Shown here piece after piece: positions 1 through 7,310 of a DNA stretch of 32,002 nucleotides. Position 1 is the first letter of the stretch, and each line of letters begins with the position of its first letter. The translations under genes were made by a program, and so were the position numbers. The stretch covers positions 1 to 32,002 of the forward strand of contig CAMCVV010000026.1 in NCBI GenBank assembly GCA_945881905.1, written 5' to 3'. The notes below the pieces were generated by a model. It made no database searches, was not told where the DNA came from, and saw only the letters and a list, made by a program, of their open reading frames with translations. Source of the DNA: Paenibacillus alvei (GTDB taxonomy: Bacteria > Bacillota > Bacilli > Paenibacillales > NBRC-103111).

Positions 1-870
1 GATCAAGGGTTCGTCTATCGGATGAACACAGATGGTAGCGAACGAACTGTTTTCATCGAACAAGATGCAATGTTCATTCAAATCATTGAAGATTGGCTGT
101 ACTTTATTGATGCTACGGATAACCAACTCTACAGAATGCGGACAGACGACAAGACGATCGAACGTATAGTTGAAGATCCTGTAAGCTTATACCAGATTGT
201 CGGAACTACGATCTATTATATGGTCGTCAATCATGATTATCACATCAATATCATCAATACAGACGGAACCCATCGTAGGCAGTTCACGAACGATCCAACG
301 AAACATTTTCAAGTCCAGAACAATTGGCTCTACTACCAGAACCTAAGTGACAACAATCGAATATATCGAATACATCTTAAGCTCAATACCAAAGAAATGA
401 TCACGAACGAAAACGCCAATTATATGATTGTTCAAGGGTCGTGGATCTATTATCAAAATCTTAGTGACCAAGGAACATTGTACAAAATAAATATAAATGG
501 ACATGAGAAAACAAAATTAATGTCACATCAAGCCAAGCAAATTCATCTCATTGCAGACTGGGTATATTATGTTTACAAAAACGGGTTAAGTGAAGAACAA
601 CATAAAATCGATACAAAGGGAAGTTATTCCTCAATCATCGTACCCACGGATGCGCAAGAAGATGGAGACTGGATGTATTATGCCAATCAAAGTAATCACG
701 GGTACTTATACAAAATACGTACAGATGGCACATTACGCACACAATTAAATCAAATAGAATCAAGTCAAATTGTGCTAGAAGGAGATTGGTTGCATTTTAT
801 TCAACGAGGAAACGAGGACCAAGAATTCAGAATTCGTAAAGATGGCTCTGAACAACAACCTTTAAATTAG
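1..870 (+). CDS. DUF5050-type beta-propeller repeat protein, C-terminal part (5' end outside window)
   Basis: The reading frame is open from base 1: the codons before the first internal ATG (position 22) read DQGFVYR, which is the end of a repeat, so the gene starts upstream. The visible part of about 289 residues consists of repeats of roughly 40-45 residues built on the pattern W(L/I)YY-N-SD-LYKI-DGT--TQL. This is typical of DUF5050/TolB-like six- or seven-bladed propellers found in Bacillota cell-surface proteins. No enzymatic motif, membrane segment or anchor is visible in this part. The gene ends at a TAA with no clear terminator behind it. Function is unknown; a binding or scaffold role outside the cell is only an inference from the fold. 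Confidence 0.85.
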   Translation, partial: DQGFVYRMNTDGSERTVFIEQDAMFIQIIEDWLYFIDATDNQLYRMRTDDKTIERIVEDPVSLYQIVGTTIYYMVVNHDYHINIINTDGTHRRQFTNDPTKHFQVQNNWLYYQNLSDNNRIYRIHLKLNTKEMITNENANYMIVQGSWIYYQNLSDQGTLYKININGHEKTKLMSHQAKQIHLIADWVYYVYKNGLSEEQHKIDTKGSYSSIIVPTDAQEDGDWMYYANQSNHGYLYKIRTDGTLRTQLNQIESSQIVLEGDWLHFIQRGNEDQEFRIRKDGSEQQPLN

Positions 871-1012: not shown

Positions 1013-1813
1013 ATGTCTTTTCCGGTATACATTTATATTGGCTCATTGAAGCTACATCCTCATCTGTTTTTTGAATTCTCAGCTTATTTTATTGGGTTTC
1101 GTTTCTATGTCATGACTAGAAATATGGACAGAATCCCGATGGATAAAATGATCAGTGTACTTGTAGGCGCTATTGCGGGAGCAGCAATAGGGTCGAAGCT
1201 GTTGTATTGGTTTGAAGATCCTCTAATGACAATCATGAGTATAGGTAGGCTATTCCATAATACAACTTGGGTAGATGGCTTAAGTTATTTGATGGGAGGC
1301 AAAACCATAGTCGGTGGGTTGCTAGGAGGATTGATTGGAGTGGAATTGGTTAAAAAAATGATAGGCTGGGCACGTTCCACAGGGGATGATTATGTTCTGC
1401 CATTGATTATCGGCATGGCGATTGGACGTATCGGATGTTTCTTAACCGGGTTACCAGATCATACGTATGGCACACCTACCCATTGGATAACCGGCGTTGA
1501 CTTTGGCGATGGGATTTCGCGACATCCAGCTCAACTATACGAGATCGCTTTTCTATGCTTCTTGGCTGGATTTCTGATTGCTATCAAGAAAGGGCACTTT
1601 GCGTATTTGCTTCATGCGTCTGAAGGAGTCAGGTTTCAGATCTTCATGATCGGTTATTTATCTTTTCGACTGTTTATTGATTTCATCAAACCGACCATTC
1701 ACCCCTATCTGGGACTGAATAATGTACAAGTCGCTTGTATAATGGGATTGCTCTATTATGGAGTAGTCATTTGCCGCTTGACGGCTAAAAAGGAGAAAAT
1801 TACACATGCCTAA
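1013..1813 (+). CDS. Divergent prolipoprotein diacylglyceryl transferase (Lgt)-family membrane protein
   Basis: This is a polytopic membrane protein of 266 residues. Lgt proper moves a diacylglyceryl group from phosphatidylglycerol to the lipobox cysteine of prolipoproteins. Family marks seen here are GGLLGG (residues 101-106), GRIGCFLTG (138-146), HPAQLYE and, near the C-terminus, GYLSFRLFIDFIKP. The Arg of the GRxG motif (E. coli R143) is kept as R139. The essential HGG histidine (E. coli H103) is Val100, within GKTIVGG, so classical Lgt chemistry is doubtful. I chose ATG 1013 over the in-frame ATG at 989 because AGGAGA at 1001-1006 stands 6 bases before it. The 3' end overlaps the next gene by 8 bases, which implies translational coupling. 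Best reading: a paralogue with an altered acceptor or donor, working with the radical SAM enzyme. Confidence 0.8.
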   Translation: MSFPVYIYIGSLKLHPHLFFEFSAYFIGFRFYVMTRNMDRIPMDKMISVLVGAIAGAAIGSKLLYWFEDPLMTIMSIGRLFHNTTWVDGLSYLMGGKTIVGGLLGGLIGVELVKKMIGWARSTGDDYVLPLIIGMAIGRIGCFLTGLPDHTYGTPTHWITGVDFGDGISRHPAQLYEIAFLCFLAGFLIAIKKGHFAYLLHASEGVRFQIFMIGYLSFRLFIDFIKPTIHPYLGLNNVQVACIMGLLYYGVVICRLTAKKEKITHA

Positions 1814-3236
1814 AAATCGTCCGTATTTATTTTATGAACTGACCAATAGCATCTGCTCGAAATGTTATCGGAAAGTTGAGGCTAAAGTCATCATTGAAGA
1901 TGAGTGTGTGTATTTATTAAAACGTTGCTTTACGCATGGACCGGAGAAAGTATTGATTTCCACGGATGTAGATTACTACAAGCTTTGCCGAGAATTTAGT
2001 AAGCCTGCGGAAATGCCGTTGCATTGGAACACACCTATTAAATATGGTTGTCCTTACGATTGCGGATTGTGTCCGGATCATGAGCAACATAGTTGTTTAT
2101 CTTTGATTGAGGTGACGGACCATTGTAATTTACAATGCCCCATTTGCTATGCGGAATCATCTCCCAAACGGGAAAAGTATCGTTCGCTAGAGGAAATCGA
2201 AAGAATGATGGATGCGATCGTAAGGAATGAAGGCGAGCCGGATATTGTACAAATCAGCGGAGGAGAACCGACAACGCATCCTCATTTTTTTGAGATATTG
2301 GACATGGCCAAGCGGAAACCAATTAAACATCTGATGGTCAATACGAATGGGATTATAATCGCTCAGGACCGTAATTTTGCTAAGCGGCTGTCTCAATATT
2401 TGCCTTCGTTTGAAATCTATTTGCAATTTGATAGCTTTGAAGCAGCTACACTTCAGGAACTACGCGGAGCGGATCTGCGTATGATTCGCACTAAGGCATT
2501 GGAGCATCTGAATGAATTTAACATCTCTACAACATTGGTTGTAACATTGAAAAAGGGTTTGAATGACAATGAAGTAGGAAAGATTATCCAATACGGATTA
2601 AAACAGCGAGCTGTTCGTGGCGTTACCTTTCAACCGATTCAAGCTGCAAGTCGACTAGAAGAATATGATCCATCTAAAGACCGCTTGACCTTAAGCGAGG
2701 TTCGCCAGATGATTATTGACCAATCGGAACTATTCAAAGCAGCGGACGTTATTCCTGTGCCATGCCATCCGGATTGTCTAGCAATGGGTTATGCGCTCAA
2801 ACTGGGGGAAAGTGTGATCCCATTGACGAGTATTATTGACCCAGCCATTCTTCTTGAAGGCGGACGCAATACGATTGTATTTGAACAAGACGAGAACTTA
2901 AGATCCCGCATCTTTGAACTCTTTTCTACTAATCATTCTCCCGTTTCCTCCGCATTGTCTTTGAAAAATCTATTATGCTGCTTGCCGCTAGTTTCCGTTC
3001 CCCAATCGATTGGATATGCAAATGTATTTCGTGTCCTGATTATGCAGTTCTTAGATCCATATAACTTTGATGTGCGCTCCGTCAAAAAATCCTGCGTACA
3101 CATCGTTCATCCGGATGGGCGCATTATCCCGTTTGATACCTACAATTTGTTTTATCGCGATGGGAAGGAAGAATTGCTTAAACAATTGAAAGCGGAGCTT
3201 GAACCGCATAATCATATAACGATAAGGAGTGAGTAG
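1806..3236 (+). CDS. Radical SAM enzyme of the MJ0619/Tes (tetraether lipid synthase-like) family
   Basis: This 476-residue protein has the radical SAM cluster motif CxxxCxxC at C107, C111 and C114 (TDHCNLQCPICYAE) and a GGEP SAM-binding motif at 152-155. Before the core lie extra cysteines: C17-C20, C41, then GCPYDCGLC (C82, C86, C89) and C97. This arrangement is characteristic of the archaeal MJ0619/Tes family, where such cysteines bind auxiliary iron-sulfur clusters. Further family-like blocks are FQPIQAASR, PVPCHPDC and a C-terminal CVHIVHPDGRIIPFDTYN. As I recall it, the family has a Cys in that last block where this protein has Asp. Archaeal Tes joins lipid tails through C-C bonds. The bacterial substrate is unknown, but the overlapping Lgt-like gene points to a lipid or lipid-anchor substrate. 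The ATG at 1806 lies inside the upstream gene, preceded by an AAGGAGAAAA site. Confidence 0.85.
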   Translation: MPKNRPYLFYELTNSICSKCYRKVEAKVIIEDECVYLLKRCFTHGPEKVLISTDVDYYKLCREFSKPAEMPLHWNTPIKYGCPYDCGLCPDHEQHSCLSLIEVTDHCNLQCPICYAESSPKREKYRSLEEIERMMDAIVRNEGEPDIVQISGGEPTTHPHFFEILDMAKRKPIKHLMVNTNGIIIAQDRNFAKRLSQYLPSFEIYLQFDSFEAATLQELRGADLRMIRTKALEHLNEFNISTTLVVTLKKGLNDNEVGKIIQYGLKQRAVRGVTFQPIQAASRLEEYDPSKDRLTLSEVRQMIIDQSELFKAADVIPVPCHPDCLAMGYALKLGESVIPLTSIIDPAILLEGGRNTIVFEQDENLRSRIFELFSTNHSPVSSALSLKNLLCCLPLVSVPQSIGYANVFRVLIMQFLDPYNFDVRSVKKSCVHIVHPDGRIIPFDTYNLFYRDGKEELLKQLKAELEPHNHITIRSE

Positions 3237-3240
3237 GAAG

Positions 3241-3474
3241 ATGAAGATTATTGCCGGATTTTTTATAGCTATATTGATAAATATCATATTATTTATTATT
3301 GTTATTTTCATTATTTTCAGCGGAACTGCGATTGTTTCAGGTGCGATTATTCAACTTGTTATTATTGCTTTAATTTGTTTCATTAATTGGAATAATCATA
3401 GGCAGTTGGCACAAGGATTGATTATCGGAGCAAGTATAGTCTTTATGGGTAGTTCGTTATGTTGGGGAATATAA
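3241..3474 (+). CDS. Small membrane protein of the Lgt-like/radical SAM unit
   Basis: This 77-residue, strongly hydrophobic protein has about three membrane segments (residues 3-27, 32-51 and 60-75) separated by a polar WNNHRQ loop. Translation could start at GTG 3229, but that codon lies within the AAGGAG site, so ATG 3241 is preferred. The radical SAM gene stops at 3236, only four bases before this start, so the three genes very probably form one transcript. I do not recognise the family. A membrane partner or scaffold for the two enzymes is an inference from position only. Confidence 0.65.
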   Translation: MKIIAGFFIAILINIILFIIVIFIIFSGTAIVSGAIIQLVIIALICFINWNNHRQLAQGLIIGASIVFMGSSLCWGI

Positions 3475-3702: not shown

Positions 3703-5268
3703 ATGAGTTTGTTAACGGTAGAAGATTTAAGTCACAGCTTCGGAGGGCGTGTACTTTTTAAGAATGTGTCATTTCGATTGCTTGCTGGGGAGCATGTAGG
3801 AATCGTTGGAGCCAATGGTGTAGGCAAATCAACGATGATGAACATATTGACGGGTCAATTATTGAAAGACTCTGGGAAAATCGAATGGACACCTAGAGTT
3901 CATTATGGTTATTTGGATCAGCACACGAAATTAACACCAGGCAAGTCAATACGTCATATTCTTCAAGATGCATTCTTACCCCTCTATGAAGAAGAACGTG
4001 AAATGATGGTAATCTCCGATAAAATGAGTGACGCTTCACCTGAAGAACTAGAGAAATTATTAGAGCAGATGGGTGAGATTCAGGAACGATTAGAAAATAG
4101 TGGTTTCTATATGCTAGATGTGAAAGTCGATGAAATTGCAAATGCACTGGGCTTATCTGCAATTGGCTTAGAGCGGAATGTAGAATCATTAAGCGGTGGA
4201 CAGCGTACCAAAGTATTGCTTGCGAAGCTATTGCTAGAGAAACCAACGGTATTATTATTAGATGAGCCGACGAACTATCTAGACGCGGAGCATATTGATT
4301 GGCTGAGAAATTATCTGAAGGATTATCCGTATGCATTTATATTGATTTCACACGATTCAGATTTCATGAATGATGTCGTCAATGTCGTCTATCATCTCGA
4401 ATTCACTAAATTAAACCGCTATACAGCTAATTATGAAAAGTTCTTACAGATGGCTGAAATGAATAAAACACAACATATTCAAGCTTTTGAGAAACAACAA
4501 GAGTATATTAAGAAACAAGAAGATTTTATTCAACGTAATAAAGCACGTGCTTCGACATCTGGACGTGCAAAGAGCCGCGAGAAGCAGTTAGATCGCATCG
4601 ATCGCATCGATCGTCCCGAAATCGCGATGAAGCCAACTTTTGTATTCAAGGAGTCTCGAGCCAGCAGTCGTATTGTATTCGAAGCAGCAGATATGGTTAT
4701 CGGGTATGATCAGCCGCTGTTGCCCAAAATGAATATGGTTGTAGAGCGTGGAGATAAGATTGCTGTTGTTGGATGTAACGGCGTAGGTAAATCAACTTTG
4801 TTAAAGACGATTCTAGGCGTGATCGAACCTTTAAGTGGCAAGAGCTACCAAGGGGATAACTTATTTTCTGCTTATTTCGAACAAGAGCACAAAGCACAAA
4901 CCGTCACGCCACTCGATGATGTGTGGGCCATGTACTCGCATATGACGCAAGGAGAAGTTCGCAGTGCTCTCGCACGCTGCGGATTAAAGAATGAACACAT
5001 CACTAGACCGTTACAGAAACTAAGCGGTGGCGAGCAAGCAAAGGTAAGATTGTGTAAATTAATGATGAGGGAAAGCAATTGGATTCTTTTCGATGAGCCG
5101 ACGAATCATCTAGATGTCATTGCGAAAGAAGAGTTACGCAAAGCGCTTCAAGCTTATAAAGGGACTGTTGTGCTGGTTTGTCACGAACCGGAGTTCTATC
5201 AGGATTGGGTCACGAAACTGTGGGATGTCGAAGCGTGGTCAAGTCAAAAAGCAAGAATGCAATCGTGA
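3703..5268 (+). CDS. yfmM: ABC-F family ATPase, YfmM-like
   Basis: This soluble protein of 521 residues carries two ABC cassettes and no membrane domain, as in ABC-F translation factors that act at the ribosomal E site. Each half has a Walker A (GANGVGKST and GCNGVGKST), a signature (LSGGQ and LSGGE) and a Walker B with DEPTN (DEPTNYLD and DEPTNHLD). The H-loops are SHD and CHE. A charged linker with a short DRIDRID duplication joins the halves. The N-terminal sequence and length match my memory of Bacillus subtilis YfmM rather than drug-resistance ABC-F proteins. The ATG follows AGAAGGAG and the extended -10 promoter upstream. All catalytic motifs are intact, so it should be active. A role in relieving ribosome stalling is inferred from the family. 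Confidence 0.88.
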   Translation: MSLLTVEDLSHSFGGRVLFKNVSFRLLAGEHVGIVGANGVGKSTMMNILTGQLLKDSGKIEWTPRVHYGYLDQHTKLTPGKSIRHILQDAFLPLYEEEREMMVISDKMSDASPEELEKLLEQMGEIQERLENSGFYMLDVKVDEIANALGLSAIGLERNVESLSGGQRTKVLLAKLLLEKPTVLLLDEPTNYLDAEHIDWLRNYLKDYPYAFILISHDSDFMNDVVNVVYHLEFTKLNRYTANYEKFLQMAEMNKTQHIQAFEKQQEYIKKQEDFIQRNKARASTSGRAKSREKQLDRIDRIDRPEIAMKPTFVFKESRASSRIVFEAADMVIGYDQPLLPKMNMVVERGDKIAVVGCNGVGKSTLLKTILGVIEPLSGKSYQGDNLFSAYFEQEHKAQTVTPLDDVWAMYSHMTQGEVRSALARCGLKNEHITRPLQKLSGGEQAKVRLCKLMMRESNWILFDEPTNHLDVIAKEELRKALQAYKGTVVLVCHEPEFYQDWVTKLWDVEAWSSQKARMQS

Positions 5269-5690: not shown

Positions 5691-7310
5691 ATGATTAGCG
5701 TGAATAATGTGTCGTTACGATATGGCAAGAGAGCGTTGTTCGATGAAGTGAATGTGAAGTTTATTCCTGGGAATTGTTATGGTTTAATTGGAGCGAATGG
5801 CGCAGGAAAGTCGACTTTCTTAAAAATATTATCAGGTGAACTCGAAGCCAATAAAGGTGAAGTCTCGATCACACCTGGTGAACGACTCGCTGTCTTGAAA
5901 CAAAACCAAAATGAATTCGACGATGTAGAAGTATTGAAAACAGTGATGCAAGGACACTCCCGTTTATTTGCAATCATGCAAGAAAAAGATGCCCTCTATG
6001 CAAAAACTGATTTCACAGAAGCAGATGGCTTGAAAGCTGCTGAATTAGAAGGTGAGTTCCAAGATTTAGATGGATGGCAAGCGGAGTCTGACGCTGCAGA
6101 GTTACTGATTGGTTTGGGTATTACTGCACCTCAACATGATGTGTTGATGAAAGAGTTGGACAGTAACGCTAAAGTGAGAGTGCTTTTGGCTCAAGCATTA
6201 TTTGGTAATCCGAATATATTACTTCTCGATGAGCCTACGAATAACTTGGACCTTGACTCTGTAAAGTGGCTAGAGAATTTCTTAGCTCGATTCGAAGGTA
6301 CAGTCATCGTTGTTTCACATGATCGACACTTCTTGAATCAAGTATGTACACATATTGCAGATATTGATTACAGCAAACTACAACTGTATGTCGGGAATTA
6401 TGACTTTTGGTACGAATCAAGTCAACTTGCTATGAAATTAATGCGAGATTCGAATAAAAGAACAGATGAAAAGCGCAAAGAACTCGAAGCGTTCATCGCT
6501 CGATTCAGTGCAAATGCATCGAAGTCTAAGCAAGCCACATCACGAAAAAAACAATTAGAGAAGTTAACGCTTGAAGATATTAAGCCATCCTCTCGGAAAT
6601 ACCCGTTCGTTCATTTCAAATCGGAGCGTGAAGCAGGCAAGCAATTGTTGTCTGTCGAGAAACTCAGCAAAAACAGTGATGATGAAACGCTGCTCAATCA
6701 GATTTCATTTGTGATTAATAAAGGTGACAAGATTGCTTTCGTAGGTTCTCATGGGTTAGCAAAAACAGCATTGTTCAAAATACTCATGAATGAGCTAGAA
6801 CCTGACGAAGGAGCTTTCACTTGGGGAATCACGACGTCACAAGCGTATTTCCCAAAAGACAGCACTTCGTATTTTGACATGGAAATTAACTTGATTGATT
6901 GGCTTCGTCAATATTCCAAAGATCAAGATGAAACATTCATTCGCGGGTTTTTAGGACGTATGCTATTCTCAGGAGAAGAAGCTTTGAAGAAAGCGAATGT
7001 CTTATCCGGAGGAGAAAAAGTCCGCTGCATGCTTTCAAAAATGATGCTGAGTGGATCTAATGTCTTGATATTTGACGAACCGACGAATCATCTTGATTTG
7101 GAATCGATCACTGCGCTCAACAATAGTCTTAGAGATTTCGATGGAACCATTCTCTTCGTTACACATGACCATCAATTCATTCAAACAGTCGCCAATCGTA
7201 TCATGGAAATTACCCCATATGGGGTAATTGATAAAATGACGACGTATGAAGAATATCTCGAAAGTGAAGATGCGAATAAACAACGTGAGGTACACTATAA
7301 TAAAAAATAA
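5691..7310 (+). CDS. ykpA: ABC-F family ATPase, YkpA/YbiT-like, with a degenerate first signature
   Basis: This 539-residue protein has two ABC cassettes. Half one has Walker A GANGAGKST and Walker B LLLDEPTNNLD, but the signature reads LDSNA (residues 156-160) in place of LSGGE. Half two has an unusual Walker A, GSHGLAKT (352-359), where Ala replaces the usual Gly before Lys, a normal LSGGE (438-442) and FDEPTNHLD. Length and blocks such as VGNYDFWYESSQLA and TTSQAYFPKD match the YkpA/YbiT branch. I recall that Firmicute members of this branch often carry a GNE-type first signature, so the change is probably a subfamily trait and not decay. The product should be a cytoplasmic, ribosome-associated ATPase. 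The RBS before ATG 5691 is weak (AGAAAGTAGG). Confidence 0.88.
   Translation: MISVNNVSLRYGKRALFDEVNVKFIPGNCYGLIGANGAGKSTFLKILSGELEANKGEVSITPGERLAVLKQNQNEFDDVEVLKTVMQGHSRLFAIMQEKDALYAKTDFTEADGLKAAELEGEFQDLDGWQAESDAAELLIGLGITAPQHDVLMKELDSNAKVRVLLAQALFGNPNILLLDEPTNNLDLDSVKWLENFLARFEGTVIVVSHDRHFLNQVCTHIADIDYSKLQLYVGNYDFWYESSQLAMKLMRDSNKRTDEKRKELEAFIARFSANASKSKQATSRKKQLEKLTLEDIKPSSRKYPFVHFKSEREAGKQLLSVEKLSKNSDDETLLNQISFVINKGDKIAFVGSHGLAKTALFKILMNELEPDEGAFTWGITTSQAYFPKDSTSYFDMEINLIDWLRQYSKDQDETFIRGFLGRMLFSGEEALKKANVLSGGEKVRCMLSKMMLSGSNVLIFDEPTNHLDLESITALNNSLRDFDGTILFVTHDHQFIQTVANRIMEITPYGVIDKMTTYEEYLESEDANKQREVHYNKK
7209..7228. repeat. 20-bp perfect palindrome inside the ykpA-like gene
   Basis: ATTACCCCATATGGGGTAAT is fully self-complementary and encodes part of the conserved ITPYGVI stretch near the C-terminus of the ABC-F protein. 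It may be coincidence, an mRNA hairpin or a protein-binding dyad. Confidence 0.6.

Follow-up and report, generated by a model that had tools for sequence, protein, structure and literature searches.

A conserved trio of Lgt-like, Tes-like radical SAM and small cysteine-helix membrane proteins in Paenibacillus alvei as a candidate lipid-attachment system

What would a bacterium do with a relative of the lipoprotein diacylglyceryl transferase Lgt encoded in overlap with a relative of the archaeal tetraether lipid synthase Tes, and with a small membrane protein directly behind them? This question is raised by a stretch of DNA from Paenibacillus alvei (GCA_945881905.1, contig CAMCVV010000026.1, positions 1-32,002 of the forward strand; the window, hereafter, meaning all 32,002 nucleotides), in which three genes with open frames follow each other on the + strand: an Lgt-like integral membrane protein of 266 residues (P0001, 1013-1813), a Tes-like radical SAM protein of 476 residues (P0002, 1806-3236) and a small membrane protein of 77 residues (P0003, 3241-3474). 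The Lgt-like gene starts with the ATG at 1013, preceded by AGGAG at 1001-1005, and stops at 1811-1813; the radical SAM gene starts with the ATG at 1806, preceded by AGGAG at 1791-1795, overlaps the former by 8 bases and stops at 3234-3236; and the third gene runs from the ATG at 3241, after a gap of 4 bases, to the stop at 3472-3474. These coordinates agree with the arrangement described in an original prediction made on this DNA, which had also guessed that the unit modifies lipid tails or the diacylglyceryl anchor of lipoproteins. That guess is plausible from sequence and structure models, as the pair of enzyme genes is widely conserved and the model of the radical SAM protein matches Tes over its full length; it overlooked the role of the third gene, the product of which is the likely lipid acceptor. 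Our preferred reading, which we hold tentatively and rate somewhat short of an even chance, is that the trio may constitute a lipid-attachment system, with the Lgt-like protein lipidating a cysteine of the small protein and the radical SAM enzyme coupling or altering alkyl chains.

Co-occurrence of the Lgt-like and radical SAM genes

The Lgt-like gene lies beside the radical SAM gene in 70 of 71 named genome loci, which come from Bacillota, Bacteroidota, a Blastocatellia metagenome-assembled genome (MAG), a Spirochaetia MAG and a cyanobacterial MAG (L078), the last being the exception. In a plasmid collection, all four Lgt-like matches (Persicobacter, Nonomuraea and two Mycobacterium) have a radical SAM match no more than about 1.2 kb away, and three records of this collection (L097, L099 and L101) make up the actinobacterial evidence. 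Co-occurrence was counted across genomes, using E cut-offs placed in gaps of the score lists after these had been viewed, and among related genomes that are not independent of each other. Across 98 genomes, comprising relatives and the window's own, both genes are present in exactly the same 23 (Fisher p 7e-23), with the Lgt-like gene at E<=5e-53 in all of them and the next match at E 1e-17. Both genes also occur in 16 of 198 Bacteroidota genomes, with one further genome carrying the Lgt-like gene only (p 1e-22); in 12 of 199 Acidobacteriota genomes, with the radical SAM gene only in G611 and the Lgt-like gene only in G510 (p 3e-17); and in 4 of 388 Bacillota genomes (two of the 388 shared with the 98-genome set), with the radical SAM gene only in G989 (p 5e-9). 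A weaker Tes-like gene is carried by 30 further Acidobacteriota genomes without a strong Lgt-like match and by 23 Bacillota genomes without an Lgt-like match at E<=1e-30, and among 194 cyanobacterial genomes, for which radical SAM genes only were counted, a match was found in 9 and a strong one in 8. In G139 the pair is split over different contigs.

Chance adjacency of the two genes was rejected by the co-occurrence and adjacency counts, together with the counts of neighbouring open reading frames (ORFs) given below; the original prediction had staked its case on conservation of the pair in other genomes, and that conservation was found. The window's radical SAM protein has its nearest named relatives mostly in Paenibacillus. 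The genome that holds the window measures 2.4 Mb and is 99.59% complete, with sampled family members ranging from 4.1 to 10.3 Mb, and the trio is intact there despite a genome size below that range.

Folds and conserved residues of the two enzymes

The window's radical SAM protein scored 80.9 bits with Pfam Radical_SAM, and its best NCBIfam match was the radical SAM (seleno)protein TrsS (NF045646) at 317.6 bits, below the curated cut-off of 490; the Tes model (NF045702) gave 279 bits, below its cut-off of 450. Seven further radical SAM relatives obtained Tes scores of 142.6-324.2 bits, and all seven remained under the TrsS cut-off. True membership of Tes or TrsS was rejected on these grounds. 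A selenoprotein reading of genome G876 was rejected as well, since the TGA there is the terminal stop. By sequence, the sole relative of known structure that covers most of the protein is MJ0619/Tes, also named GDGT-MAS (7TOL/7TOM, E 4e-66). The AlphaFold2 model (pLDDT 74.3, pTM 0.81) matched the Tes fold over its full length in Foldseek (7TOM, E 3.1e-36, TM 0.79/0.76), and it aligned with Tes at Z 40.8 (rmsd 3.4, 416 residues aligned), followed by MoaA at Z 19.3, the VIA-align comparisons of both enzymes having taken in only Foldseek-ranked chains, so that other folds missing from them carry little weight. The comparison of structures that had been suggested for this protein thus led to Tes, and to nothing else comparably.

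Metal-binding sites support the same relationship. A rubredoxin-like site, C17-x2-C20-x20-C41-x2-H44 (PF23545 zinc-ribbon domain; 1854-1937, + strand), has a spacing identical to that of MJ0619/Tes, given as C9X2C12X20C33X2H36 in its published description. It is followed on the same strand by an N-terminal auxiliary cluster, C82-x3-C86-x2-C89 with H92 (2049-2081), placed by alignment with the Tes ligands, and by the radical SAM cluster, C107-x3-C111-x2-C114 (2124-2147). The ligands of all three sites show no variation among 33 aligned sequences, and the Tes-type auxiliary-cysteine pattern noted in the original prediction is genuine. The C-terminal auxiliary region (2763-3104, + strand) comprises by alignment C320, C391, C392, M413, C430 and I433; its cluster-binding cysteines would be among C320, C391, C392 and C430, M413 keeps the place of Tes Met439, and I433 replaces Tes Tyr459.

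In a quick tree built from 52 radical SAM proteins, with several long branches flagged and with L201, L217, L188 and L199 left out for want of a usable frame, one clade of 32 (SH-aLRT 100) contains 30 proteins paired with an Lgt-like gene, one whose Lgt-like gene lies on another contig and one without any. L202 adjoins this clade (86), the actinobacterial type stands apart together with L204 (100), and archaeal Tes falls near L189, L192, L194 and L196, outside the Lgt-paired clade.

This topology bears on a different explanation, namely that the trio serves a general membrane-lipid pathway, in which the radical SAM enzyme would make membrane-spanning phospholipids, the Lgt-like protein would exchange or flip head groups, and the small protein would be a scaffold or sensor with a structural or redox cysteine. 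A Tes-type fold with Tes-type metal ligands is what such a pathway would use, and bacterial Tes homologues have been proposed as makers of membrane-spanning lipids (PMC8941075; PMC13274423). Among them, Mss has been proposed to couple lipid tails, and in Bacillota it was linked to iso-diabolic acid lipids; the same source reports five Paenibacillaceae and one Bacillaceae species with Mss and Ger homologues of >30% identity, some of which may belong to the present clade (PMC13274423). However, the Mss-like Acidobacteriota loci (L184-L200, 28-34% identity), provisionally so labelled from taxon and score, have no Lgt-like gene in flanks of roughly 1.5 kb, and 15 of the 17 have no cysteine partner of the type described below. 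Further, archaeal Tes groups with the four Mss-like proteins named above and not with the Lgt-paired clade, and a scaffold role leaves unexplained why dissimilar small proteins retain just the cysteine. We consider the membrane-lipid pathway unlikely.

The Lgt-like protein matched the Pfam LGT superfamily (75.8 bits, cut-off 24.9), and its AlphaFold2 model (pLDDT 87, pTM 0.83) had one significant Foldseek match, E. coli Lgt (5AZB, E 3e-6, TM 0.66/0.62), with which it aligned at Z 14.8 (rmsd 4.6, 237 residues aligned), the next match reaching Z 7.1. The Lgt call of the original prediction consequently stands at family level, whereas true Lgt membership was rejected, with a TIGR00544 score of 34 bits against a curated cut-off of 118.9. 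As the curated cut-offs for both enzymes were missed, the terms Tes-like and Lgt-like hold, and Tes and Lgt do not. The possibility that this protein is the sole Lgt of the cell was likewise rejected, since a canonical Lgt is encoded elsewhere in the same genome (G000:C43:2222-3049, 245.6 bits).

Residues at the functional positions of E. coli Lgt were counted over 109 loci, which gave 106 Lgt-like proteins and include a few repeats of one genome. Of the 106 proteins, 105 retain Arg143 and 105 have Cys in place of Asn146, corresponding to Arg139-Cys142 of the window protein (RIGC of the GRIGC motif; 1427-1438, + strand). Tyr215, Arg219, Asp223 and Lys226 (1655-1690, + strand) occupy the places of Tyr235, Arg239, Glu243 and Arg246, which carry Tyr and Arg in all 106 proteins for the first two, Asp in 62 and Glu in 44 for the third, and Lys in 100 and Arg in 6 for the fourth; Glu202 is also kept in 106/106. 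Conversely, His17 (1061-1063, + strand) stands at the place of the essential Tyr26, with His in 100 of 102 proteins, the Met100 place carries Lys or Arg in 102 of 104, and Val100 (1310-1312, + strand) stands at the place of the essential His103, where the canonical Lgt of the same genome has Tyr. In E. coli Lgt, changes at His103, Tyr26, Arg143, Arg239, Glu243 and Arg246 abolished complementation (PMC4728403). With Arg143, Tyr235, Arg239, Glu202 and an acidic residue at 243 retained, and His103, Tyr26, Met100 and Asn146 replaced, the donor side of the Lgt-like protein looks kept and the remainder rebuilt.

The Cys at Lgt position 146 was rejected as a mark of this family, since other Lgt paralogues found among the relatives (L127-L132) also have GRIAC or GRIGC. 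These paralogues have no radical SAM gene, and some have thioredoxin-like or two-component genes in their vicinity. The paralogues of L130 and L132 also have a short protein encoded nearby, with a cysteine in its helix (ICPIMM, VCPIMM), perhaps a second pairing of an Lgt paralogue with a cysteine protein. The Lgt-like frame is split in two or bears a stop in L041, L075, L096, G018 and G032, by sequencing error or decay.

Small cysteine-helix proteins beside the pair

The 77-residue protein of the window has no Pfam or NCBIfam match above cut-off. Its last helix spans approximately residues 57-77, after Arg54, and carries Cys74 (codon at 3460-3462, + strand) 3 residues before the C-terminus; at position 74 of 77, this cysteine does not belong to an N-terminal lipobox signal peptide. 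It is the feature common to 119 partner proteins from 103 loci, which were picked for carrying it, the unselected counts being those of the 77-locus rule scan reported below. In these proteins a Lys/Arg is followed by a hydrophobic helix and then by a cysteine 16-27 residues on (median 20). The sequences are otherwise dissimilar and form 22 BLAST clusters; in 107 of the 119 the distance from the cysteine to the C-terminus is 3-15 residues, and 111 have Gly, Ala or Ser at position -1 or -2 relative to it. As a cysteine at the outer end of a helix is the one feature constant across bacteria, the small protein is likely the lipid acceptor. The cysteine is predicted, by positive-inside charges alone, to face outwards, where Lgt acts.

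With the first rule, a cysteine-helix ORF was present in 71 of 77 loci, and 85 of 320 same-strand neighbouring ORFs matched, compared with 3 of 578 nearby ORFs of the opposite strand and 35 of 2707 distant ones. Altogether, a partner was recognised beside 103 of 108 pairs, 91 by three script rules that differ slightly and 12 by eye, the latter accepted without a control (L080, L097, L099, L164, L166, L167, L178, L179, L181, L215, L220 and L221). Among the first-rule loci with a pair (n=74), partners were recognised by rule in 70 and by eye in 3 (L080, L097, L099), leaving L077 only; among further pairs they were found in 15/15 from Bacteroidota, 6/6 from cyanobacteria, 7/11 from Acidobacteriota and 2/2 from divergent Bacillota. 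These counts take L144 and L171, which are the genomes of L082 and L077 again, once; they include as pairs G487 (on two contigs) and L163 and L181 (at contig ends), and L176 was judged on short flanks only. The window and its relatives L003-L025 stand outside the 108 pairs, and in these short loci the partner is present in 22 of 23, not being seen in L024.

The layout of the partner varies among hosts. In Bacillota it has about three helices, and in some Paenibacillus it combines a Cys-rich B-box-like zinc finger with one helix ending in the cysteine and is encoded upstream of the Lgt-like gene (L042:4539-4919, L060:4747-5010, L062:4835-5092, L064:4848-5114, L065:4856-5122 and L096:4871-5167); family searches on the small proteins gave a B-box zinc finger in L064 as the sole match above cut-off, Pfam having been applied to this type there only. 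Pedobacter and the mycobacterial plasmids carry two tandem copies. The cyanobacterial partners of L164, L166, L167 and L219 have an N-terminal signal-like helix, the cysteine and then a mostly proline-rich tail, which in L164, L166 and L167 is the layout of an ordinary lipoprotein. A probable lipoprotein of 397 residues adjoins the partner in L219 (5193-6386), and a similar-looking frame lies beside L166.

A radical SAM enzyme encoded with one or two short proteins that have a constant cysteine resembles the maturases of ribosomally synthesized and post-translationally modified peptides (RiPPs), and the enzyme might instead modify the small protein itself, for instance by a thioether at the cysteine, with the Lgt-like protein lipidating it or only placing it. 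Hybrids of RiPP and lipoprotein that pass through the normal Lgt pathway have been described (PMC12636315), and loci L078 and L219 have the radical SAM gene and the small protein with no Lgt-like gene found. On the other hand, enzyme and cysteine would lie on opposite sides of the membrane, the former in the cytoplasm and the latter, by prediction, at the outer face; the 22 clusters show no apparent common leader (leaders as such were not searched for); and NCBIfam gave 317.6 bits for TrsS and 279 for Tes as against 55.3 for the highest-ranked maturase model among the best 25 of 65 matches. The fold match is Tes as well, with SPASM maturases at Z 19 or less, and we regard RiPP-like maturation as improbable. 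The DAG-RiPPs described in that source are comparable to the present trio in that a cytoplasmic metalloenzyme and a lipoprotein pathway act on one small product; they differ by an iron MNIO enzyme, a canonical N-terminal lipobox and use of the ordinary lipoprotein pathway, and the term radical SAM is absent from its text (PMC12636315).

A possible route to lipid attachment

In the lipid-attachment system that we favour, the small protein would be a cytoplasmic membrane protein whose last helix leads outwards from a Lys/Arg-rich loop on the inner side, which, judged by charges, would bring the cysteine to the outer face in the geometry of a lipoprotein signal peptide, near the opposite end of the protein. 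The Lgt-like protein would transfer a glycerolipid to this cysteine by means of the kept donor-handling residues Arg143, Arg239 and Tyr235, while its acceptor side, with His103 lost, His at 26 and Lys/Arg at 100, may have been rebuilt for a membrane-embedded acceptor. The radical SAM enzyme would act from the cytoplasm on the donor lipid's alkyl chains, most likely linking the ends of two tails through a C-C bond in the manner of Tes, and the lipid handed to the small protein would then be tail-coupled or membrane-spanning; this coupling is the weakest step of the scheme. Since a Tes-type product would have a head group on each face, a transferase at the outer face could use a lipid made from within. 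Cleavage by signal peptidase II would not be expected, given the position of the cysteine near the C-terminus in most partners and an Ile, Leu, Val, Met or Thr directly before it in 14 of 22 cluster representatives. In its fullest form, which we find rather doubtful, the scheme would define a new lipoprotein class: small transmembrane proteins in which a dedicated Lgt relative lipidates the cysteine at the outer end of the last helix, the lipid being tail-coupled by a bacterial Tes relative and possibly membrane-spanning, so that a covalent anchor would pass through both leaflets.

Several observations weigh against this proposal. His103 of the HGGL motif, essential in E. coli Lgt, is His in none of 104 Lgt-like proteins, and an Asp or Glu lies between the Lys/Arg and the Cys in 6 of the 119 partners. 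No partner was recognised beside 5 of the 108 pairs (L077/L226, L174/L224, L175/L225, L176 and L217), and two of the 17 Mss-like loci (L187 and L189) gave rule matches, which we take for chance. In L078 and L219 the radical SAM gene has a partner next to it, and no Lgt-like gene was found in the genome, so that the association of the partner with the radical SAM gene is no looser than that with the Lgt-like gene. Conversely, G122 and G510 have the Lgt-like gene without the radical SAM gene; no partner was recognised in the former (at L212), and in the latter the gene sits at a contig end that hides its neighbours. The radical SAM enzyme cannot act directly on a finished anchor, since it should be cytoplasmic and the cysteine is predicted outside. 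In its model, residues 343-403, perhaps part of the lipid pocket, have pLDDT <50; the Ile at the place of Tes Tyr459 is invariant across the 33-sequence alignment; and the N-terminal cluster cysteines are missing in the actinobacterial branch (L097, L099, L101). In a search on Paenibacillus hosts only, no literature joining the genus with membrane-spanning and diabolic acid was found.

The last two differences from Tes would suit a single-chain change, in which the small protein would again receive its lipid from the Lgt-like protein, and the radical SAM enzyme would introduce a methyl branch, a sulfur or a desaturation into that lipid with no tail-to-tail bond. Tes Met439 and Tyr459 are conserved in 1000 archaeal homologues, the variants Y459F, Y459L and M439A retained robust activity, and Tes yields a sulfur-bearing lipid when S-adenosylmethionine is limiting (PMC9433317). 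A gene of the ICMT/PEMT methyltransferase family joins the cluster in L202 and L221, which also speaks for such a change; in this divergent branch it lies with a gene for a DUF4395 membrane protein between the radical SAM and Lgt-like genes (L202:4784-5855, L221:7116-8280). ICMT acts on lipidated cysteines in eukaryotes, and the Pfam family is broad. Against a single-chain change, the main clade retains the C-terminal Met at the Met439 place and, to judge by the alignment, the three Tes auxiliary sites, and we consider such a change quite unlikely.

Loci lacking one member also include L098 and L102, which have a Tes-like gene with no Lgt-like neighbour and no cysteine partner, a methyltransferase gene being present instead, and L203, whose Lgt-like gene is on another contig and whose only rule match sits inside the radical SAM gene in another frame.

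Searches of an open-access library that misses most subscription journals listed no paper with the trio as a subject of its title or abstract. A parallel for lipid attachment is the MYXO-CTERM/myxosortase system, in which a C-terminal helix likewise has an invariant cysteine at its outer end. Lipidation of that cysteine by an Lgt-like enzyme is proposed and unproven, with Lgt itself as the authors' leading candidate, and in that system the cysteine comes before both the helix and an Arg cluster, in inverted topology, and a protease cuts (PMC11980579). In the present trio, by contrast, the order is Lys/Arg, helix and cysteine, and a dedicated Lgt-like gene and a radical SAM gene accompany the small protein.

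If lipid attachment by the trio is correct, protein lipidation would extend beyond the N-terminal lipobox, and Tes-type tail coupling, which until now has been associated with bulk membrane lipids, would have a second use in anchoring a protein. It would account for those Tes-like genes of aerobic Bacillota and Bacteroidota that might otherwise be read as possible signs of membrane-spanning lipid synthesis, a point that bears on genome-based searches for the sources of branched glycerol dialkyl glycerol tetraether (brGDGT) climate markers, and it would provide a parallel, with a dedicated enzyme, to the lipidation proposed for MYXO-CTERM cysteines. The trio is short and is found in culturable soil bacteria.

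A PHROGs search with the three proteins returned only general radical SAM families, with no match for the Lgt-like or the small protein. Upstream of the trio, at window positions 22-870 and separated by 142 bases, a protein of repeated WLYY and DG-x-LYKI-like units is encoded; downstream, at 3703-5268 and 5691-7310, there are two proteins with paired ATP-binding cassettes, which we take to be of ABC-F type. Elsewhere, a Bacillota genome with an Lgt-paired copy additionally carries Tes-like radical SAM genes as a tandem of two (L223:5008-7817), beside genes that by eye resemble those of fatty-acid synthesis.

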